Below are positions 12,267 to 26,895 of a stretch of 26,895 bases of DNA, piece after piece. The position numbers were made by a program, and so were the translations under genes. Within the stretch, counting starts at the first letter, position 1. The number at the start of each line of letters is the position of its first letter. The DNA lies in IMG/VR virus record IMGVR_UViG_3300006917_001358, positions 1 through 26,895 of that record, one strand, 5' to 3'. The notes below the pieces were generated by a model. The model made no database searches. It had not been told where the DNA came from and was given only the letters and a program-made list of their open reading frames with translations. The DNA comes from a virus.

Positions 12267-14546
12267 TTGAATAACTCACCTGAAATTGAAAACATTATTG
12301 AGCAGGCGATAGCCAATGCTAAAGATCGTAAACATCAGTATGTTACTATTGAACATTTATTGTTGGCATTGGTTACACATCCTCCCTTCAAGAAATGTTT
12401 GAACACTTTTAATGTTGATACTGATTTAATGGTTTCAGAGATAGAAGCATATCTTAATGGGTTACATGCTATTGAGAGTAAAGACCCTGATGTTATGCCG
12501 CGCAAGACAAATAGCCTTGAGCGTACTATGAATCGCAGTGTGACACAAGTACTATTCACTGGTCGTAGACAAGTTCTTACTATTGATTTGTATTTGAGTA
12601 TCGCCGCAGAAGGTAATAGCCACGCACATTATTTCTTACTGAAATATGGTGTTAACAAACAAGACTTTGTTCCGCACTGGCAGAAAACTTATAAGGGTAG
12701 TGATTATGGTAATAAACTTACTGATAATCAAGCCGATGAAATCCTTGAAGAACACACAATTAATCTGACTCAACTTGCACGACAAGGTAAGTTGGAGCCT
12801 GTCATCGGTCGCCATAAAGAGATTGACGATATCATTAACGTATTGGCTAAACGATTTAAGAGTAACGTATTGATGGTTGGTGTTCCAGGCGTTGGTAAAA
12901 CTGCTATTGCAGAAGGTATCGCATTAGCAATTGTAAACAATGAAGTTCCTGAGTTCCTTGAGGATCATGAACTATACAGTCTTGAGATTGGTAGTTTGCT
13001 TGCAGGCAGTCGCTATCGTGGTGACTTTGAAGAAAAGGTAAAGCACGTTATTGATGCATTGAATACTAAGAAGAGAGCGATTCTGTTCATTGACGAAGCA
13101 CACACTATGCAGAATGCAGGTAGTGGTAGCAATGGCAGTGTTGACTTTGCTAATATGATTAAGCCTGCAATTACTAAAGGCACACTTAAAGTTATCGCAA
13201 GTACAACATGGGAAGAGTTCTACGAAAGTTTTGAGAAGGATCGTGCATTGATGCGCAGATTCTATCGTGTTAGCATTGATGAGCCTACAGAAGAAACTAC
13301 AATTCGTATTCTCAGTGGATTGGCTGCAAGACTTAATGACTTCCACAAAGTTAATATTACTGATGAGGCAATCAAAGCCGCTGTAGAAAATGCAGGTCGT
13401 TATATCAATGACCGTAAGAATCCTGACAAGAGCATTGACTTGCTTGATGCAGCCTGTGCTAAACAGAAAGTGTTGGGTAACGAAGATGCAATCATTACTA
13501 AGCAATTAGTACATGACCAAGTTGAGAAGTTTACTGGTGTACCTGCTGACAAATTGAACAGCGATAATTTTGATAGGATTCAAAACCTTGATATCAATGT
13601 TAAGAGTAAGTTGTACGGACAAGATGAAACTGTTGAAAAGGTTCTTGAGCGTGTTTACGTTTCATTTGCCGGTATTGGTAATGAAACTAAGCCAACAGCA
13701 AGTTTCTTATTCTTGGGTCCTACTGGTACTGGTAAAACAGAACTTGCTAAACTATTAAGTAAAAACCTCGACATGCCATTACTCAAGTATGACATGAGTG
13801 AGTACAGTGAAAAACATAGTGTTAGTAGTTTGATTGGTCCTCCTCCTGGTTATGTTGGCTTCGGTGATAGTCAAGTGCAAGGTGGACGTTTGATTAGTGA
13901 CCTAAGTAAGAACCCACATGCCATCATGTTGTTTGATGAAGTTGAAAAGGCTCACCCCGATATCTTCAATATCTTCCTACAAATGCTTGATGAAGGTACT
14001 ATCACCGGTAGTAATGGTAAGAAGGTCAGTTGTAAGAATACTATCATTATCATGACTAGTAATTTGGGTAGTAGCGATAATGAGCGTAACAATATTGGCT
14101 TCGGTGACATGGAAAAGAGTGGCGAGGATGATCGTGCATTGAAAGAATTCTTCAAGCCTGAATTTAGAAATCGTCTTGACCTTGTATGCAAGTTTAATAA
14201 ACTTGATATGTTATCTATTAAGAAGATTGTTATTAAATTTACAGATGAACTTAAGAAGAGTTTGCTAGATAAGCATAACATCACTCTTAACCTTAGTGAA
14301 CCGGTAGTTGAGTATTTGGCTGATAAGGGCTATGATAAGAAAATGGGTGCTAGACCCCTAGCACGTAAGATTGATGAAATGATTCGTGTTCCACTATCTA
14401 AAAAGATTTTGTTTGAACGTATCAACAGTGCTAATGTAATGGCTGTACTAAATGAAAATCAAGAAATTGATTTTAGTGTTTCACAAAAAGTAACTGCAAT
14501 GGTGGGAGAAGATGGAATCATTCAAGTTGAACCTGGAAGACCGTGA
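12267..14546 (+). CDS. clpA: ClpA-like AAA+ unfoldase with ClpP-docking IGF tripeptide
   Basis: The 759-residue product is practically the length of E. coli ClpA (758). An N domain (1-140, substrate/adaptor binding) is followed by D1 with Walker A GVPGVGKT (205-212) and Walker B LFIDEAH (273-279). D2 has Walker A GPTGTGKT (484-491), LFDEVEKAH (555-563), the GPPPGYVG pore loop and the GARPLAR sensor-2. No ClpB-type middle domain is present. I-G-F at 610-612 occupies the place of the ClpA IGL loop that docks on ClpP. No ClpP gene is visible here, so it probably borrows host ClpP. The start is TTG with AAGGA upstream. Its end overlaps the next gene by 35 nt. Confidence 0.92.
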   Translation: MNNSPEIENIIEQAIANAKDRKHQYVTIEHLLLALVTHPPFKKCLNTFNVDTDLMVSEIEAYLNGLHAIESKDPDVMPRKTNSLERTMNRSVTQVLFTGRRQVLTIDLYLSIAAEGNSHAHYFLLKYGVNKQDFVPHWQKTYKGSDYGNKLTDNQADEILEEHTINLTQLARQGKLEPVIGRHKEIDDIINVLAKRFKSNVLMVGVPGVGKTAIAEGIALAIVNNEVPEFLEDHELYSLEIGSLLAGSRYRGDFEEKVKHVIDALNTKKRAILFIDEAHTMQNAGSGSNGSVDFANMIKPAITKGTLKVIASTTWEEFYESFEKDRALMRRFYRVSIDEPTEETTIRILSGLAARLNDFHKVNITDEAIKAAVENAGRYINDRKNPDKSIDLLDAACAKQKVLGNEDAIITKQLVHDQVEKFTGVPADKLNSDNFDRIQNLDINVKSKLYGQDETVEKVLERVYVSFAGIGNETKPTASFLFLGPTGTGKTELAKLLSKNLDMPLLKYDMSEYSEKHSVSSLIGPPPGYVGFGDSQVQGGRLISDLSKNPHAIMLFDEVEKAHPDIFNIFLQMLDEGTITGSNGKKVSCKNTIIIMTSNLGSSDNERNNIGFGDMEKSGEDDRALKEFFKPEFRNRLDLVCKFNKLDMLSIKKIVIKFTDELKKSLLDKHNITLNLSEPVVEYLADKGYDKKMGARPLARKIDEMIRVPLSKKILFERINSANVMAVLNENQEIDFSVSQKVTAMVGEDGIIQVEPGRP

Positions 14547-19048: not shown

Positions 19049-20035
19049 ATGAAAATCGAAAACATTATAAATGAGACAACCGCAGGGGCAACTGCATCAG
19101 GTTCAGTGGCAGCGGTGGCAAAGCCAATGGGCGAAACACAAAAGCGAGGCAAAATGGGACCAAAAGTCTCTGGTTTAGAACCAGCAGGCAAGGTCATGTT
19201 TGGCAAAGCAAAGAAGAAAGGCCCATATACAAATAGCATTAGCGAAAGTGCTATTAAAGAAGATGAACTATCTGAAGAGGATATGTTCTTAATGAGAGCC
19301 GAAAAGCCTAAGGTTTTTGGATTTATTCCTAAAGGCCAAAGTCGTGTAGACCACGAAGTTGAAATGGCACGTAGTGATTTAATACAAGCCATGAAAAATG
19401 CTAAAACAGTCTATGGATTAATTAAAGACCGTAGCGAAGATGAAGGTCTTGAGGGTTGGGTACAAGAAAAGATTATTAAGGCAGCAGATTATCTAAACAC
19501 TATCGCAGAATACCTAGAAGGTAAGAAGATGCAAGAAATGCAGGGTGGCGTCGTAGCCGCAGGTGGTGTTGGAGAAGGCATGGGATCAGGTTCTGTAGGT
19601 TATGACAATGCTAAAGCAATTGCATATGCAGCCAAAGATGGCACAAGTGCTGATGTTAAGTTAGGTGATGACACAGTAACATTAGAATATCCTGAAGCAC
19701 GTTTTGCATATGGTGTTTATAAGCAAGCCGTTAAAGACGGTCGTGTAGATGAAATCATTAAAGTATTCTCAGACCCTATCAAGTTCCACAAGATGATGAA
19801 GAAGATGGGCGATATGCTTTATCGTGACCGTAGTAAAGAAATGGCACAGGCTGCGGCACAACGTATTGGTCAACCAGGTATGATGGAAGGTGCTAAGGTT
19901 GATCGCATGGTACAACACATTAAGAAGTCTGAAATGAAAGCAGGCAAGAGTGCTGACAAAGCAGAAGATATTGCTTGGGCTACTGCAAACAAACGTGGTT
20001 ACTTAGACAATAAGAATAAAAAGAAGAAGGATTAA
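19049..20035 (+). CDS. Modular, probably virion-internal protein with capsid-targeting-like leader
   Basis: The 328-residue product begins MKIENIINE, ending in I-N-E at 7-9, then an Ala/Gly/Thr-rich linker and basic stretches. Further L/I-x-E tripeptides (I64-E66, L74-E76) flank a short acidic region. A helical module spans about 100-160 (MARSDLIQAMKNAKTVYGLI... GLEGWVQEKIIKAADYL). A second lies at about 185-262 (LGDDTVTLEYPEARFAYGVY). A basic C-terminal module (283-328) carries KKSEMKAGKSADKAEDIAWA and ends KNKKKKD. From memory these modules recur in marine T4-like phage proteins. The leader, basic tail and neighbouring polyprotein point to a DNA-associated protein packaged in the head; this is inference. 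Confidence 0.65.
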   Translation: MKIENIINETTAGATASGSVAAVAKPMGETQKRGKMGPKVSGLEPAGKVMFGKAKKKGPYTNSISESAIKEDELSEEDMFLMRAEKPKVFGFIPKGQSRVDHEVEMARSDLIQAMKNAKTVYGLIKDRSEDEGLEGWVQEKIIKAADYLNTIAEYLEGKKMQEMQGGVVAAGGVGEGMGSGSVGYDNAKAIAYAAKDGTSADVKLGDDTVTLEYPEARFAYGVYKQAVKDGRVDEIIKVFSDPIKFHKMMKKMGDMLYRDRSKEMAQAAAQRIGQPGMMEGAKVDRMVQHIKKSEMKAGKSADKAEDIAWATANKRGYLDNKNKKKKD

Positions 20036-20037
20036 TT

Positions 20038-22248
20038 ATGAGTTCTATCATCAAAGGTATAATGTCTGAGTTGAGCCACTCAAATAAATTTGATGAGGGC
20101 GCTAGGCTAAGCGACTCTTATTATATTCCTAGAATTATTGCCGGCGACTTTCCTAAAAATTCTGAAATAACAGTAAGTACCAAAAAACGAGAATCTAAAA
20201 CAGGTAAAACCGTTAGAGATTTTGGACTAAAAATTAACCCTGGATTCTTGCAGACAAAACTTTTTTATAAATTAGAAGATATTAAAACAGTAATTGATTT
20301 AGGTGATGATGTTAGAAACAGAGGACAATCAACCGCCGGTACTTTAGGGAGAGCAGCGGTCGGCGGCCTGACATTTGGAGTAGGAGGCGCGGTAGTAGGT
20401 GGCTTAACTGGAAAAAATGAGTTTGATGAATACGGGGTCTACGGGCTTGTTTTTAACGACGGTAAGAGGGCAAAAATTAAATTTCATAAAGATTCTATGT
20501 TAGGGGAGCAACTTAGTAACTTTCTTAATAAAAAAGTGGATTTGGGTTTCGGTGAGGTGCCTCAAAATAAGAGTAAAAAATCAAATAATGAACCACCAAA
20601 ACAACCCCAACAAACAATTAAAAAGACTACCAATACTGCCGATACAAACATTGCGCCAATCTCACCTACACCTGCAACATCTGCTACCCAAACACCAATA
20701 GCCGCAAATACTACAGTATCCTCACCAAATGTTAATACTGAACTACAAAAAAGATTGGCAGCACGTAAAGCAGGAAAGCCAGTGTACTCAGGTGGACTTG
20801 AAGAGGGTGAAGATAGACAAGCAGAATTAGAAATGGCATTACAAAAAGCCAGACAGATAACTAAACAAATCAAGTATGATGATACTGCTACAGATATTAT
20901 TGTACAAATTCAAATGCTTGCAGAAAAGTTCAATATTGATAAAGATTCACTTGAATCAGCAATTGATGATGTATATAATGCAAAGAATCAATTAGAATCA
21001 GCAGTATATGGATTAGATGAAGTATTTGAAGAGGCACTGCAACAATCACGTTGGGACGATGACGAAATGCTAGATGAGAATCTACGCAAGTGGTTCAAAG
21101 AGAAGTGGGTTCGCTTTGGTCCTGATGGTAAGATTCGTGGTGCTTGTGCTAGAGGTGATGATAGTGAAGGTAAGCCAAAGTGTTTGCCACAAAGTAAAGC
21201 ACATAGTCTAGGCAAGAAGGGTCGTGCAAGTGCTGCCGCACGTAAGCGTAGAGAAGATCCTAATCCAGAGCGTAGTGGCAAGGCTATCAATGTCAATACT
21301 AAGAAAAAGTCAAACGAAGCAGAGTTAGACGAAGCCTGTTGGAAAGGTTACCACAAAGAAGGTAACAAGAAAATGTTTGGCAAAACATATCCTAACTGTG
21401 TAAAAAATACTAACGAAGAACAAGAATTAGATGAAATCAACCGTAGAGGCTTTTTAAAAGGTTTGGGCGCAGCCGCACTAGGTGCTGCTGGAATGAAGGC
21501 ACAAGCACAGACTGATCAAGAGCAAGATTTGGGAGATGGATTTGTTTTAGTGACAATACCTTTTAGAGGCCACACACTCAAGGCAGTATTGGACAAACAA
21601 ACTAATACATATTACACCACTAACCGTAGAGCAGACGGTACAGGTGCTATTATTCGTAGCATGGCTCCTTATATTATGGTACGTGGTGATCAAGCATCCA
21701 CTGCTATGAACGTCGGACCTGCTACTTTGGCTGCGATGAAAAAAGCTGGTCTAGAAACAATGCAAGAAGGTGTGGCGGAAGAACAACTAGACGAAAAGTG
21801 TTGGGACACACATAAGCAAGTTGGTATGAAAAGTAAGGGCGGTAAAATGGTTCCTAACTGTGTGCCAAAAGAAAGCGTTGAAGAGGGTCATCAGCAATGT
21901 CCCGAATGCGGTGGCGCAATGTACGAAGCAGAAATGATGAATGAAAAGAAAGATGCTTGCTACTATAAAGTAAAGAGTCGTTATAAGGTATGGCCAAGTG
22001 CTTATGCTAGTGGCGCACTAGTTAAGTGCCGCAAGAAGGGTGCAAGTAACTGGGGCACTGGTGGTAAGAAAAACGAAGATACTGCATATGCAGGTGGTAT
22101 GGGACAAGGTGGCAATGCTGGACAAAGTTATCGTAAGTATAAAGTAAAACCATCAGGTATAGCACAGGGTATTAGTGAGACAGAAGCAGTCAATCGTAAC
22201 GACGGTGACGGTTGGCATTGGTATGACATAAAACCAGCAGGGAAATAA
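20038..22248 (+). CDS. Modular polyprotein with LDE-linkers (probable internal virion polyprotein)
   Basis: The 736-residue protein contains at least six parts. 1-170: beta-rich domain with a glycine zipper (GRAAVGGLTFGVGGAVVGG, 104-122). 180-250: Pro/Thr-rich linker. 254-345: acidic helices. 348-425: basic Cys-containing module, WFKEKWVRFGPDGKIRGACA onward, recalling DUF5872-like sequences. 433-455: CW...YPNCV mini-module. 467-575: domain preceded by a twin-arginine-like signal, NRRGFLKGLGAAALGAAG. 587-609: second CW...VPNCV mini-module. 612-736: CPECGG knuckle and KVWPSAYASGALVKCRKKGA module. L-x-E sites lie at most borders (256, 347, 432, 466, 586, 714), mostly in NEEQ-x-LDE contexts. The prohead protease of a T4-like phage would be expected to cut there; not proven. 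It starts 2 nt after the previous stop. Confidence 0.65.
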   Translation: MSSIIKGIMSELSHSNKFDEGARLSDSYYIPRIIAGDFPKNSEITVSTKKRESKTGKTVRDFGLKINPGFLQTKLFYKLEDIKTVIDLGDDVRNRGQSTAGTLGRAAVGGLTFGVGGAVVGGLTGKNEFDEYGVYGLVFNDGKRAKIKFHKDSMLGEQLSNFLNKKVDLGFGEVPQNKSKKSNNEPPKQPQQTIKKTTNTADTNIAPISPTPATSATQTPIAANTTVSSPNVNTELQKRLAARKAGKPVYSGGLEEGEDRQAELEMALQKARQITKQIKYDDTATDIIVQIQMLAEKFNIDKDSLESAIDDVYNAKNQLESAVYGLDEVFEEALQQSRWDDDEMLDENLRKWFKEKWVRFGPDGKIRGACARGDDSEGKPKCLPQSKAHSLGKKGRASAAARKRREDPNPERSGKAINVNTKKKSNEAELDEACWKGYHKEGNKKMFGKTYPNCVKNTNEEQELDEINRRGFLKGLGAAALGAAGMKAQAQTDQEQDLGDGFVLVTIPFRGHTLKAVLDKQTNTYYTTNRRADGTGAIIRSMAPYIMVRGDQASTAMNVGPATLAAMKKAGLETMQEGVAEEQLDEKCWDTHKQVGMKSKGGKMVPNCVPKESVEEGHQQCPECGGAMYEAEMMNEKKDACYYKVKSRYKVWPSAYASGALVKCRKKGASNWGTGGKKNEDTAYAGGMGQGGNAGQSYRKYKVKPSGIAQGISETEAVNRNDGDGWHWYDIKPAGK

Positions 22249-22249
22249 T

Positions 22250-22405
22250 ATGTTAAAAATAGTAACAGGTTTGGCTGTAGTAGGTCAAAAGAAACAAACA
22301 CTAACAGATGCTAAACCTAAAAAAGGTAATATGGTAACTAATGCAAAGCCAATTGATCCTAAGGTAGATCCTAGTGTTAAAATTAAAAAGGTATATCTTA
22401 AGTGA
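22250..22405 (+). CDS. Small basic protein, 51 residues
   Basis: A short frame starts at an ATG 1 nt after the polyprotein stop (TAATATG). The 51-residue product begins MLKIVTGLAVVGQKKQTLTD and ends KKVYLK, Lys/Val/Pro-rich. Its stop overlaps the GTG start of the next gene (GTGA), which supports translation. No family recognised. Confidence 0.6.
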   Translation: MLKIVTGLAVVGQKKQTLTDAKPKKGNMVTNAKPIDPKVDPSVKIKKVYLK

Positions 22406-22629
22406 GAGCCAGTGAGTTTATTATAGAAAATAAGGGTTTACCAATGCCCGGTACTTACGAACAAGAATACAATATGTTCAAAAGTAAAGGGCCTAGACGT
22501 ATTACTGCTATGACCAATGAAGAACAGATTGAAGAAAAATGGTCTAAGAAATATAAAAATAGTATAAATTGTAATAATCCAAAAGGTTTTAGTCAACGTG
22601 CCCATTGTCAGGGAAGAAAGAAGAAATGA
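22402..22629 (+). CDS. Small protein with leader plus Cys/Lys basic module
   Basis: The 75-residue product starts at a GTG within the GTGA overlap. It begins MRASEFIIE (I-x-E at 7-9) and contains NEEQIEE (39-45, another I-x-E). It ends in a basic module, KWSKKYKNSINCNNPKGFSQ (46-65) and then RAHCQGRKKK, which I recall as a recurrent C-terminal unit in aquatic T4-like phages. If cut at both sites, a 30-residue Lys/Cys peptide is released. The leader DNA is 16 of 19 identical to that of the kinase-like gene at 23756. Probably packaged in the head with DNA; inference. Confidence 0.65.
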   Translation: MRASEFIIENKGLPMPGTYEQEYNMFKSKGPRRITAMTNEEQIEEKWSKKYKNSINCNNPKGFSQRAHCQGRKKK

Positions 22630-22766
22630 CACATTTACAAGATGTAAATATGACATACTTTCAACATATGCGTAGGGCATTGACTATAGCAGGAATATTA
22701 ATTGTACACAGTGTTTTTCCAAACGTTTGGAAAACAAAAGCAACAGAATTATTATGTAGAGGATAA
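22626..22766 (+). CDS. 46-residue protein, DUF6356-like
   Basis: A short frame begins in an ATGA overlap with the previous gene and ends 1 nt before the Dps-like start. The product contains MTYFQHMRRALTIAGILIVH (9-28) and FPNVWKTKATELLCRG. This pattern (YFxHMxxAL... FPxVWxxKAxxLL) matches my memory of DUF6356, small proteins of phages and marine bacteria with unknown role. The central part is hydrophobic enough for membrane contact. The tight overlap supports translation. Confidence 0.65.
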   Translation: MTHLQDVNMTYFQHMRRALTIAGILIVHSVFPNVWKTKATELLCRG

Positions 22767-22767
22767 C

Positions 22768-23211
22768 ATGCTAGCAGAAGCATTAAAAACATTATTATCA
22801 ACAAGTTATGCGTTTGTAATTAAAGCGCAACACTTTCATTGGAACGTTGAGGGTCCTAACTTCCCGCAATACCATAAATTCTTCGGTGACATTTATGAAG
22901 AAGTATACGGTAATGCTATAGACCAAACAGCAGAATATATTAGAACACTAGATAGTTACACACCTGGTAGCATGCGTAGATTTAGTGAACTATCAGTGAT
23001 AGAAGAACAGCCTATGATTCCACGTGCTGAACTCATGTTACAAGAACTAGAAGTAGATAATCAAAAAGTTCTTGAATTACTTAACAACTGTTTTGAACAT
23101 GCTGAGGCAGAAAACAAGCAAGGTATCGCTAATTTTATTGCAGAGCGTTTAGATGCACATGAAAAGCATGGTTGGATGTTACGTAGCACACTTAAAAAAG
23201 CCAGAGCATGA
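22768..23211 (+). CDS. dps: Dps-like ferritin (DNA-protection / iron storage)
   Basis: The 147-residue product starts at an ATG preceded by AGAGGA; a longer upstream frame is only an overlap with the previous gene. It has the Dps four-helix pattern: HFHWNVEGPNF (22-32), H36, D41, YEE (43-45) and D52..AE56. Of the usual inter-subunit ferroxidase ligands, H24, H36, D52 and E56 appear kept. The Asp normally four residues after the second His is Gly here, with an Asp one place later. Dps oxidises Fe(II) with peroxide, stores iron and shields DNA. Its stop overlaps the heme oxygenase start (ATGA), tying iron release to storage. Confidence 0.85.
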   Translation: MLAEALKTLLSTSYAFVIKAQHFHWNVEGPNFPQYHKFFGDIYEEVYGNAIDQTAEYIRTLDSYTPGSMRRFSELSVIEEQPMIPRAELMLQELEVDNQKVLELLNNCFEHAEAENKQGIANFIAERLDAHEKHGWMLRSTLKKARA

Positions 23212-23744
23212 CAATACTAAGAGAAGCAACACACGATAAGCATCGTGAAGTAGAAGCACTGCCTATGATTCAGGCTATAATGAAGGGTCCTACTTTTGAC
23301 CAATATGTCTCATATCTATATGAATTAAAAGAAATTTATAGAGTGATAGAGTTGGCTGCGAGAGGTGCAGATATTCTTAAAGATTTACCTGGCATAGAAC
23401 GCTATGATGCTATAACCGAAGATTTAAATGATTTAAACAATAACTATACAAGAGAGTTGATGCCCGGCACTAAAAAGTATATAGATCATATATGGGCAAC
23501 AGCGTATCATAATCCACATTTATTATTAGCACATGTCTATGTAAGACATATGGGCGATTTATATGGTGGTAAGTTAATGGCTAGAGTAGTCCCGGGTGCA
23601 GGCAGAGCATATAAATTTGAAGATAGACCCGGTATCATCAAAGCATTCAATGAGAAACTAACAATGGATTTGGCTGATGAGGCCAATCTAGCATTTGACT
23701 ATTTCATACAGATTTTTGACGAGTTGTATAAGAGTCAAAACTAA
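23208..23744 (+). CDS. ho1: Heme oxygenase (HO-1 type)
   Basis: The 178-residue enzyme has the alpha-helical heme oxygenase fold. It carries the N-terminal LREATHDKHREVEAL (4-18, proximal His at 12) and the distal-helix motif GDLYGGK (116-122), matching GDLSGGQ of HO-1, including the conserved Asp. It cleaves heme to biliverdin, CO and Fe(II). In cyanophages ho1 accompanies bilin reductases (pebS, pcyA); none is visible here, so iron release from host heme is a better guess. It is co-translated with the Dps-like gene. Its LRE at the N-terminus is part of the enzyme family's normal sequence, not a leader. Confidence 0.88.
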   Translation: MTILREATHDKHREVEALPMIQAIMKGPTFDQYVSYLYELKEIYRVIELAARGADILKDLPGIERYDAITEDLNDLNNNYTRELMPGTKKYIDHIWATAYHNPHLLLAHVYVRHMGDLYGGKLMARVVPGAGRAYKFEDRPGIIKAFNEKLTMDLADEANLAFDYFIQIFDELYKSQN

Positions 23745-23755: not shown

Positions 23756-24958
23756 ATGAGAGCCAGCGAATTTACCAGTAAATTAAATGAGAGCATGCTG
23801 ATTACAGATGTTCCCAATGAGGATTGGCTGGCTGGAAAAGTTGAATACGCAAAAAGCAGAGGTCGTGATAGTTATGGTGTACCATATATGGGATCAACAA
23901 CTGGTATTGTAAGACCTGAACCTAAACTACCTGTGAGTCTTTTAAAAAGACTACCTGGCATGCGCGGTGAACAACGCAATGTCAGAGAAAAAGACTTAGA
24001 AGCCATAATGAAAATAATGAAAGACACAGGTAAACTTCCATTAAGGCAAAATGGTCAAGAATATGCACCCTTCGTTATGGTGGCCTATAATGGCGAAGCC
24101 TGGGTCAATGAAGGTAATCATCGTATCATGGCTGCGGCTGCATTAGGATGGGACGAATTACCAGTAGAGTTAAAGTATTTTGATGGTGGTGAACGTGTTA
24201 AATCAGGTCCATTATACCCAGATAAGATAGGCTTAACACATCCTAAACCCGGCTCTACTGTTGTAATTAATGAAGTAGATGTAGACGAAGCAGAATCAGG
24301 AACTCCTGAGGCAAAGAAAATCACACAACAACTTAAGGATGCTGGGTATAAACAATTAGGTAGTGGTGCCGACGCAACCGTGTGGAGTAAGGATGAGGGG
24401 CAAGTGATAAAGGTCATTATGCCTGATAGTAAAGATATTACACAAGCCGCATATGTATTTAAAAAGTTCTATGAGTTTTGCACACAACATAAAGACTTAG
24501 CATGCTTACCAAAATTTATACCGATACAAGGTAGAGACTATGTAGAATTTAAATTAGGTAATAAGAATTACATACAGGTTAGTATGGAGCAACTGTATCC
24601 TATTAAAGAAGATAGTTTTGCACAGGGTATAGTTTGGTTCTTTAGTGATTATGTATCCAATGGTGTTAAGTGGGACAAAGTTGATGATTTGTTAGGATAC
24701 CCGCAAACATGGTATGAGTTCCATACTAATAAGGCAAATCAGTTTGCAGAAAAATGGCAAAATTTATCAATGATAAAAGGTAATGAAAGAAAACATTCAG
24801 AGATGCAACTACTATACACAGTAATGGAATTGTTATATAGAACAGGTAAGATTAATAAAATGTTTTGGGACTTGCATACTGACAATGCTATGCAACGTAA
24901 AGATGGTACTATAGTTATCATTGATCCATGGTTTGAAAGATATGAGGGAACATTATGA
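23756..24958 (+). CDS. ParB-like / protein-kinase-like fusion with internal-protein leader
   Basis: The 400-residue product begins MRASEFTSKLNE (L-N-E at 10-12). Residues 75-145 resemble a ParB/sulfiredoxin-like fold with NEGNHRIMAAAALGW (118-132). A V-V-I-N-E tripeptide site (171-173) lies in the linker. Residues 195-400 look like a protein/aminoglycoside-kinase fold: Gly-rich loop LGSGADATVW (201-210), possible ATP Lys K219, catalytic loop WDLHTDNAM (371-379) and metal-binding D390 in IIDPW. T4 packages Alt and T7 makes the gp0.7 kinase, both acting on host proteins; a packaged kinase would be comparable. Activity and targets are inferred. The start lies 5 nt after a late-type box. Confidence 0.7.
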   Translation: MRASEFTSKLNESMLITDVPNEDWLAGKVEYAKSRGRDSYGVPYMGSTTGIVRPEPKLPVSLLKRLPGMRGEQRNVREKDLEAIMKIMKDTGKLPLRQNGQEYAPFVMVAYNGEAWVNEGNHRIMAAAALGWDELPVELKYFDGGERVKSGPLYPDKIGLTHPKPGSTVVINEVDVDEAESGTPEAKKITQQLKDAGYKQLGSGADATVWSKDEGQVIKVIMPDSKDITQAAYVFKKFYEFCTQHKDLACLPKFIPIQGRDYVEFKLGNKNYIQVSMEQLYPIKEDSFAQGIVWFFSDYVSNGVKWDKVDDLLGYPQTWYEFHTNKANQFAEKWQNLSMIKGNERKHSEMQLLYTVMELLYRTGKINKMFWDLHTDNAMQRKDGTIVIIDPWFERYEGTL

Positions 24959-25335
24959 AAATTAGCGAGTTATTAAGAGAAGGCAAATTTGATCCTGACT
25001 TTGACGATCAGGAAGAAGTTCCTGCTGATCCAGACAAAGATAAGGTACCACACTTAGTCATGCAACTTAGAAAAGCATTTGACGTAGATGGTAATTATCC
25101 TATACTCTTTAGAGACAATACTAAAGCAAAATTGTCTATGGATGAGATTGTAGGATTCTTAAAAACATATATGAGTCTTAAACCATTAGAAAGAGAACAG
25201 ATGCAAGATATGGCTGCTAATAGTAAAAAAGATTTCATGCAGTCTATAACTAGTTTTAAGAAAACTATGGCACCTGTGCAGAAAATAAAAGGTGATAGAT
25301 ACATGTCACACTTTGCAGGAGATTTAGACAAATGA
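24955..25335 (+). CDS. Small acidic/helical protein with internal-protein leader
   Basis: The 126-residue product begins MKISELLREGKF, with L-R-E at 7-9, the same place as in two other leader genes in this window. The rest is acidic near the N-terminus (DPDFDDQEEVPADPDKDK) and then helical and basic. I do not recognise the family. It starts in an ATGA overlap with the kinase-like gene, with GAGGGA upstream, and its stop overlaps the nuclease start. It is a candidate virion-internal protein. Confidence 0.65.
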   Translation: MKISELLREGKFDPDFDDQEEVPADPDKDKVPHLVMQLRKAFDVDGNYPILFRDNTKAKLSMDEIVGFLKTYMSLKPLEREQMQDMAANSKKDFMQSITSFKKTMAPVQKIKGDRYMSHFAGDLDK

Positions 25336-25775
25336 AACACTTTATTATAGCATTAATTGCAACATTAGGATTGATATTACCTGCATATGCACAAAAAACA
25401 CCACAGGGTGTTATGTACGATGTTACACTAGTACGTGTAACTGACGGTGATACAGTAGTATTCAAGGCTAGTTTTTTACCAGCACCACTAAAGCCAGAAC
25501 TAGCATTACGTGTGTTTGGTGTTGATACTCCTGAAAAAGGATTTCGTGCAAAATGTCCTAGCGAAGCACAACGAGGTGAGGCTGCATCAGCATTCACTAA
25601 GAAAGCAGTAGCCAATTCAAAAACACATCAAGTTTATCTAATGGACTGGGATAAGTTTGGTGGAAGAGTTTTAGGTGATCTATTACTTGATGGTCAAAGT
25701 CTAAGACAAATGTTAATAGCCAATGGCTACGCTAGAGAATATTTTGGCGAAGCAAAACAAAGTTGGTGTAACTAA
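25332..25775 (+). CDS. Secreted staphylococcal-nuclease-like endonuclease
   Basis: The 147-residue product has a Sec signal peptide (1-20, FIIALIATLGLILPAYA, cut AYA|Q). An SNase domain follows: VRVTDGDTVVF (34-44), ALRVFGVDTPE (58-68) and DKFGGRVLGDLLLDG (107-121). R60, D65, E68 and R112 correspond to the R35, D40, E43 and R87 of staphylococcal nuclease, so the active site looks intact. Two Cys (75, 146) could form a disulfide outside the cytoplasm. It would act in the periplasm or outside the cell on DNA or RNA, perhaps for nutrient salvage or against competing phage DNA; inference. Start overlaps the previous stop (ATGA); AGGAG at 25317-25321. Confidence 0.88.
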   Translation: MKHFIIALIATLGLILPAYAQKTPQGVMYDVTLVRVTDGDTVVFKASFLPAPLKPELALRVFGVDTPEKGFRAKCPSEAQRGEAASAFTKKAVANSKTHQVYLMDWDKFGGRVLGDLLLDGQSLRQMLIANGYAREYFGEAKQSWCN

Positions 25776-25937: not shown

Positions 25938-26895
25938 ATGATAAAAAAGATCCTTGTGTTGGCTATAGTTACTGCCTTTATGGGCAGTGTGCCAGCATAT
26001 TCACAAACTACAAACACTAGTACGCAAAGTACAACCGGTGGAACAACTACAAGTACAACAACTCCTATCAACCAAGGAGGTTACACAAGCACCTCTTTAG
26101 TTGATACGAACAGCACTAGCAACAGTACCAGTAGTGTTAACACTACAAATATGACTACTACTAACAATAATAGTACTAGTATGAGTACAGTTAATAGTAC
26201 CAATAATAACAACAATACTAGCACTAGTACCAATGTCAATACCAACAATAATATTCAAAGTGGTACTGTCACTAATATTAACCAAAATACTAATAATGGT
26301 ACTATGACATATAATAACAATAATGTTAATAGTGGTACTGTAACTTATAACAATAATAACAATAATGTCAATACTGGTACTATGACATATAATAACAATA
26401 ATGTTAATAGTGGTACTATGACATATAATAACAATAACAATACGACAAGCACTAACACTAACAATAACGTGATGAGCGGAACCGTTACGTATAATAACAA
26501 TAATGTTTCTACTAACACTAACCACAATATCAATAGTGGTACTCAAACATTTAATAATAACAACGTAAGTACAAGTAATAGTAGAGCCGAAGTTATTAAC
26601 AGCGGCACACAAACATTTAACAACAATAATGTGAGTAGTTCTAACAATACTAATAATAACGTGAACACTAATGTTAATACTGGAGACATGACAAATCGTA
26701 ATATCAATACAACTACATCAAATAACGTAAACACAAATAACAACACTAGCAGTAATACTAACGTTAATATTCAGCAAGGTGAGATGACTAACCGCAATAT
26801 CAATGAAACAACTGTTACGCAGAAAGTCATTCAACCACCACCAACAGCAATCGCTCCGCCTATGATGAGTGTGGGTAGCGATCTTTGCGTAACAG
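25938..26895 (+). CDS. Secreted Asn/Thr/Ser-rich repeat protein (3' truncated by window)
   Basis: An open frame from the ATG at 25938 runs without a stop to the window end (319 codons visible). It starts with a Sec signal peptide, MIKKILVLAIVTAFMGSVPA, followed by YSQ. About 250 residues then consist almost only of Asn, Thr and Ser, with about ten repeats of the type (S/T/N)-G-T-(V/M/Q)-T-(Y/F)-NNNN-V. After a Pro-rich hinge (IQPPPTAIAPPMM) a new segment begins, GSDLCVT, probably the start of a folded Cys-containing C-terminal domain of a kind I recall in aquatic phages. It likely forms a beta-rich fibrous secreted or surface product. AGGGA precedes the start. The long minus-strand frames here are artefacts of the repetitive codons. 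Confidence 0.75.
   Translation, partial: MIKKILVLAIVTAFMGSVPAYSQTTNTSTQSTTGGTTTSTTTPINQGGYTSTSLVDTNSTSNSTSSVNTTNMTTTNNNSTSMSTVNSTNNNNNTSTSTNVNTNNNIQSGTVTNINQNTNNGTMTYNNNNVNSGTVTYNNNNNNVNTGTMTYNNNNVNSGTMTYNNNNNTTSTNTNNNVMSGTVTYNNNNVSTNTNHNINSGTQTFNNNNVSTSNSRAEVINSGTQTFNNNNVSSSNNTNNNVNTNVNTGDMTNRNINTTTSNNVNTNNNTSSNTNVNIQQGEMTNRNINETTVTQKVIQPPPTAIAPPMMSVGSDLCVT
26255..26640 (+). repeat. Degenerate tandem repeats encoding G-T-x-T-Y-NNNN-V
   Basis: Imperfect direct repeats built around GGTACTATGACATATAATAA lie in the Asn-rich gene with variable spacing of roughly 36-60 nt. They are in frame and translate to the repeat unit, so they are coding repeats, not a CRISPR array or integration site. Confidence 0.75.

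Follow-up and report, generated by a model that had tools for sequence, protein, structure and literature searches.

A putative twin-arginine signal behind a predicted prohead-protease site in the interior of a modular protein of a T4-like phage

The locus described here raises the question of what an export signal could be doing in the middle of a phage protein. The window, by which we mean the whole analyzed stretch of 26,895 nucleotides (positions 1 to 26,895 of IMG/VR record IMGVR_UViG_3300006917_001358), carries at 20038..22248 (+) an open reading frame of 736 residues, whose modules are common to cyanophage and IMG/VR proteins. These short modules (KWFKEKWV..., CWKGYHKEGNKK..., CWDTHKQVGMK... 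and KSRYKVWPSAYASGA...) match families without known function, and some of them are present in 369 phage records, nearly all from cyanophages. The frame begins with a possible N-terminal capsid-targeting leader, MSSIIKGIMSE (20038..20070, +), which ends in MSE and whose role is inferred; it has Met at P3 and matches the T4 leader less well than the MRAxEFIxE type discussed below, and similar leaders occur in L082 (MSKIIEGIQLSE) and L009 (MSNILKGIINE).

Around the site the translation reads ...NTNEEQELDE|INRRGFLKGLGAAALGAAGMKAQAQTDQ..., so that the signal INRRGFLKGLGAAALGAAGMKAQA (residues 467-490; 21436..21507, +) directly follows an LDE site (residues 464-466; 21427..21435, +), at which a prohead-protease cut is predicted. 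Ile467 starts at 21436, the twin arginine is formed by residues 469-470, and the parts NRRGFLK, GLGAAALGAAG and AQA, the last ending at residue 490 (21507), fit an (S/T)RRxFLK-like motif, an uncharged h-region and AxA, with Asn instead of Ser/Thr before RR. The Pfam TAT_signal family (PF10518) matched residues 466-484 with an E value of 5.3e-4 (20.3 bits) and the fragment encoded by 21436-21789 with 1.7e-4 (21.8 bits), both under the curated cut-off of 22.7. The Tat-type signal that the sequence-only reading had placed behind LDE was thus confirmed in the translation, with a family score just short of the cut-off. An overlooked start codon near this RR was ruled out, the five upstream codons containing no ATG, GTG or TTG.

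In the primary product, the signal is internal and would become N-terminal only if the chain were cut after LDE466. A further LDE (residues 430-432; 21325..21333, +) precedes the CWKGYHKEGNKKMFGKTYPNCVKN module, and another (residues 584-586) closes the linker GVAEEQLDE (21769..21795, +). Cuts at 466 and 586 would release a 120-residue fragment, 467-586, with a small beta domain as the payload (residues 497-573; 21526..21756, +; AlphaFold2 mean pLDDT 93.6). The [LIVM]xE motif is short and common, occurring 16 times in this frame alone. Separately, the recurrent linker QGVAEGSL[DE]E, found at 21769-21795 and in many loci, connects modules of very different proteins and may be a recombination seam besides a protease site.

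The coupling of site and signal could be followed in related loci. Among those fetched with ordinary modules of the window frame, Tat segments lay just behind [LIV]xE in L009, L048 and L052/L053. A DNA pattern for RRGFLKGxGAAA, blind to the upstream sequence, recovered 38 stretches from IMG/VR viral contigs, 32 of them distinct after duplicate removal, and [LIVM]xE stood within 7 residues before RR in 29 of the 32, against a background of 8.6% of positions in the same frames; the distance from site to RR was 2 residues in 22 cases, 3 in three and 4 in four. The binomial p of 4.5e-28 is too small, since it assumes independence and relatives are not independent, and the common ancestry of the Tat units likewise makes the counts overstate independence. 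The sites themselves vary (LEE, LDE, VDE, IDE, LSE, VQE, LNE, VNE, LAE), the payloads behind them are mostly dissimilar to one another, and only L132, L137 and L147 lack a canonical site. Loci L088-L118, fetched with a pattern that required acidic residues before RR, were excluded from this count; with them included, 42 of 45 post-Tat contexts have [LIV]xE (they are also among the 213 frames of the “all” set of the general survey). At a site-to-RR distance of two, the predicted cut is followed by I in 22 cases, V in 7 and M in 2, at a position corresponding to the start Met of a normal M-D/N-RRGFLK signal, which fits a putative capture of host signals. At E up to 1, the 38-residue Tat module matched none of 50,697 GenBank phage records, and no cultured example was found.

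One of the exceptions, L137 (1227-2186, +), belongs to a 1481-residue frame of a 100-kb virus record, in which an internal Tat signal, PDMTRRGFLKGLGAAAG, without [LIV]xE is followed by a metallopeptidase-like HEILHAL motif; perhaps the same trick operates there under another protease rule.

Signals of other types occupy the same position. The hydrophobic-segment survey found Sec-like segments starting from the first residue past the site in L006 (MDE|GWKETLGTAALTGAMALGSAGAQA) and L082 (LDE|NWKNKLAAGALSAAMGLGAMGAANA), and lipobox forms after the site in L023 (LEE|SLKDKLAAAAAAACIAGTPGC) and L054 (LLE|GIKDTAGATAVIACLLTGGSLSGC), with lipobox endings such as TPGC and SLSGC at the same place as the Tat signals. 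Four Sec-like units, used as queries, retrieved 39 loci, 27 of them distinct, in 26 of which, read by eye, [LIVM]xE directly precedes the segment; in the remaining one, L218, ILE lies one residue farther upstream. Note that Glu was fixed by one of the two search patterns and P3 by neither. A strict signal rule, allowing no acidic residues in the n-region, gave 1/968 at [LIVM]xE sites versus 1/2435 at other xxE (p 0.49). The rule was relaxed after GWKD/GWKE segments had been noticed, so the later p value is exploratory: among loci fetched regardless of signals, the counts were 10/1047 for [LIVM]xE versus 3/2531 for other xxE (p 5e-4), and of the three control matches two come from a single segment of L046, while the third corresponds to the L061 site read with a shift. 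In L115 (1789-3080, +), a module with a metallopeptidase-like HELAHCRQHE ends at VDE immediately before a Sec-like segment.

These data bear on the possibility that an internal translation start just before RR yields a separate protein with an N-terminal signal, for which no protease would be necessary. ATG does occur within five codons before RR in 12 of 55 distinct Tat-after-site contexts, and ATG, GTG or TTG in 17 (e.g., VDEADMNRRGFL); however, none of the three is found there in 38 contexts, the window and 37 others, and the conservation of P3 and P1 in the Sec-like cases would be left unexplained. We regard this explanation as scarcely tenable.

A signal-blind search anchored on the GH19 peptidoglycan hydrolase kept 80 loci of 202 relatives, representing 52 distinct contexts. 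All 52 have a signal-like segment: 31 without RR, 18 of Tat type and three recognized by eye after the filter had missed them (L293-L295, [VI]DE|GWREVVAAAIPIAGLG). The segment follows [LIVM]xE in 49 of the 52, the exceptions being L268 (IAD), L297 (EQE) and L300 (FEE). Over 44 GH19 sites (by-eye copies), Glu occupies P1 in 43, L, V or I is found at P3 in 42, and the entropy is 0.16 bits at P1 and 1.69 at P3, with P2 (2.28) and P4 (2.91) varying more; the predicted site pattern is that of the gp21 rule, L/I-x-E, with V also allowed. Glu 32 and Glu 41, which we take to be catalytic, are invariant in the GH19 alignment. The GH19 relative L268, from record G019, keeps its Tat signal with IAD in place of [LIV]xE. 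According to the accessible part of PMC9026906, Asp at leader position 10 stops processing in T4, so L268 may stay uncut.

The sequence-only reading had further claimed that processing at LDE would leave a product whose N-terminus is a Tat signal. Comparison lends this support, because the unit of site and signal stands in front of many unrelated payloads, is also found by searches blind to the signal, and has Sec-like or lipoprotein signals substituted at the same spot; the cutting itself is an inference.

Relatives of the window payload gave a less uniform picture. A five-sequence alignment retrieved 18 loci, which, with L184 left out as cut off, represent 11 distinct contexts including the window. 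According to the sequence-only reading, a lack of RR conservation among homologues would speak against the signal, and this condition applied only in part: RR is kept in six contexts, as a Tat signal after [LIV]xE, one has a Sec-like segment after LDE instead (L183, from the same record as L082), and four have no signal (L168-L172, L180, L182, L185). A signal, where present before this payload, always follows the site. In L168, L180 and L185 the payload is a C-terminal addition to phrog_13484, a “virion structural protein” of the kind “head and packaging” (L182 lay outside this comparison). From these fusions and the signal-less contexts, it follows that the window-type domain travels with head proteins and that the export signal is not its constant companion. 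Its fold had no convincing PDB match (best Foldseek E 0.98; best VIA-align 2 Z 4.2 over 44 residues), although nothing can be concluded from the lack of a listed fold, and of 31 stretches in genome contigs that matched the payload pattern, none was confirmed as a relative.

Pfam on the 45 post-Tat segments found TonB_2 in three (L089, L136, L147), Peptidase_M48 in two (L052, L085) and GH19 in one (L117); the 10 payloads after Sec-like or lipobox segments included three GH19, one of them with LysM, and one Hydrolase_2, and the L024 payload matched phage endolysin families. The majority of the remaining payloads match no named family. The named ones (hydrolases, peptidase and TonB) have predicted envelope functions.

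Chance or hitch-hiking, in which a piece of a host Tat gene, acquired a single time, spread without function through recombination, could be suspected because the modules shuffle freely and the function of the window payload is unknown. Yet the spacing between site and signal remains constant despite the changing signal type, and the enzymes behind the signal keep their active-site motifs (HExxH in L052 and L085; the two invariant Glu in GH19), which makes this explanation very improbable in our view. It is somewhat harder to set aside a real cut exposing segments that are not export signals at all, being instead Ala/Gly-rich membrane-binding or anchoring elements, for instance helices of the SAR type or tethers to the membrane-bound prohead. 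SAR domains are moderately hydrophobic and Ala/Gly-rich, and the non-RR segments of the GH19 contexts are likewise of no more than moderate hydrophobicity (best 10-residue mean about 1.4-2.1), so such a role is possible for them. However, the combination of RR-x-F-L-K and AxA is characteristic of Tat signals and is detected by Pfam, lipobox endings stand at the same place, and the payloads are of envelope type; as an account of the whole, an anchor is unlikely.

The route by which such proteins might reach a prohead is suggested by their leaders. In T4, ipII and ipIII start with MKTYQEFIAE (read from NC_000866.4), and many proteins of related phages start with MRAxEFIxE, which agrees with the capsid-targeting sequence known from T4 internal proteins (criterion: N-terminal, 10-19 residues, L/I-x-E at the end). 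Of the 2877 distinct Mets within the first 40 residues of frames, 157 begin a T4-type leader, compared with 1 of 8542 internal Mets. In some lysins the leader abuts the signal (L229, MRATEFISE|DISRRGFLGG; L260, MRATEFVTE|MDRRGFLRG; L233, VRAIEFLVE|SMSRRNFMKG), and masking may be less tight there, since the uncut extension has only about 9 residues. The window frame has four leader-bearing neighbors, all on the + strand: 19049..20035 with MKIENIINE (role inferred), 22402..22629 with (V/M)RASEFIIE, a leader of the T4 internal-protein type, a kinase-like gene at 23756..24958 with MRASEFTSKLNE, and 24955..25335 with MKISELLRE. Where the gp23 leader was read, it has LLE, ILE and LAE sites, and gp22 is rich in [LIVM]xE. 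Ten of 12 large records carry the gp21 family (PF03420), as do 3 of 31 others that are mostly small and fragmentary; no match to it was found in the 26.9-kb fragment record of the window.

Several other genes of the window can be mentioned here. Adjacent Dps/ferritin-like and heme-oxygenase-like genes (22702-23211 and 23208-23744, by eye) are flanked by genes with capsid-type leaders. An endonuclease-family protein (phrog_452; 25332-25775) and an Asn/Thr-rich repetitive protein (25938-26894) have ordinary N-terminal Sec-type signals, which, judged by eye, indicates unmasked export in the same neighborhood. A 759-residue relative of Clp-type AAA proteases/unfoldases (phrog_4871) is encoded at 12267-14546.

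It could also be supposed that the late cut frees the signals in the producing cell, sending lysins and other payloads to its own envelope and tying lysis to head maturation. Several payloads are indeed lysis-type enzymes (GH19, Hydrolase_2), but the capsid-type leaders route the protein to the prohead, where gp21 acts (PMC9026906, as far as the accessible text goes). Moreover, at least two GH19 copies are present in 8 of the 15 large records searched for them, and the second copy in seven of these (G039-G043, G045, G046) is an open frame of about 205-240 residues without leader or signal; all 11 plain copies read lack both, and on its sequence the plain second GH19 looks like an ordinary lysin. 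The masked GH19 would then be an addition with its own address, which favors, by inference, delivery to the next host. Gated export in the producer seems an improbable explanation.

The reading that we prefer, and consider probable although several of its steps are inferred, is that the window protein is head cargo of a T4-like phage, directed by its leader to the prohead core, where a gp21-type protease would cleave after [LIV]xE to give modules. The cut after LDE466 would make Ile467 the new N-terminus and turn the buried Tat signal into an N-terminal one; no export would be expected in the producing cell, since the signal is internal before the cut. The released fragment would remain in the full head, reach the next host together with the DNA and be carried over the inner membrane by the host Tat system, with a signal peptidase cut after AQA490. 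Related phages would rely on Sec-like and lipoprotein signals to bring to the envelope a set of payloads that includes peptidoglycan hydrolases, an M48 peptidase and TonB/TolA-type domains. What was read directly from the genes is the signal with its site, the coupling of the two and the leaders, together with the protease genes and envelope-type payloads of relatives; cleavage, packaging of the window protein, injection, export and the action of its payload are inferred.

As far as sequence comparison can tell, the arrangement is widespread among uncultured T4-like phages, the window being one case, and because the design is repeated regularly in relatives, these phages are likely to inject proteins destined for export by the host to its envelope. 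A broader proposal, on which we hold an evenly divided opinion, is a general two-address route in jumbo T4-like phages: the leader would bring the protein into the head, and the head protease would remove the leader and unmask a Tat, Sec or lipoprotein signal, so that preformed envelope effectors (wall hydrolases, peptidase, TonB/TolA-type domains and small binding domains) would stand in the periplasm of the next host before phage gene expression, the mask protecting the producer. If true, preformed proteins could be placed at once in the host envelope, for example for wall remodeling, exclusion of rivals or disarming of envelope defenses, with the cargo silent in the producer cell, and the readable rule of leader, [LIV]xE, signal and payload could be used to find such effectors in uncultured jumbo phages.

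To our knowledge, wherever the target of an injected phage protein has been identified, the protein acts in the cytoplasm. The literature searched, including the accessible portions of PMC9026906, PMC5694885, PMC9239132, PMC9527704 and PMC12373910, contained no description of a prohead protease unmasking an export signal; most subscription journals were outside this coverage. The closest known systems are partly similar. In T4, as described in the available part of PMC9026906, gp21 recognizes L/I-x-E before the cut, the internal proteins are packed by their leaders, cut by gp21 and injected, foreign proteins can be delivered by leader fusions, and Alt acts on RNA polymerase in the cytoplasm, where Ip1-3 block GmrSD nucleases (PMC12373910, likewise available in part). 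IPI-IPIII and Alt share with many relatives of the window protein, whose own leader is a weaker match, the MKTYQEFIAE-type N-terminal leader and, by inference for the window-type proteins, the cut after L/I-x-E, head packing and ejection with the DNA. However, the T4 proteins act in the cytoplasm, no second address or export signal unmasked by a cut is described for them in the accessible sources, and the window-type leaders are borne by multi-module proteins with many sites. Proteins ejected by giant phages of the SPN3US type are also head proteins cut by the prohead protease (PMC5694885, part of the text), both properties being inferred for the window-type proteins, whereas “signal peptide” and “periplasm” have no occurrences in the main text of that paper, as far as it was available. 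Secreted and SAR endolysins (the latter named in the accessible part of PMC9239132) also have an Ala/Gly-rich export segment at the N-terminus of a lysin domain, but in the window-type proteins the segment is preceded by a capsid-type leader and a predicted prohead-protease site, and in seven records a plain GH19 is also present. Relative to capsid-targeted ejection proteins, the new element would be an export signal exposed by the inferred prohead-protease cut.
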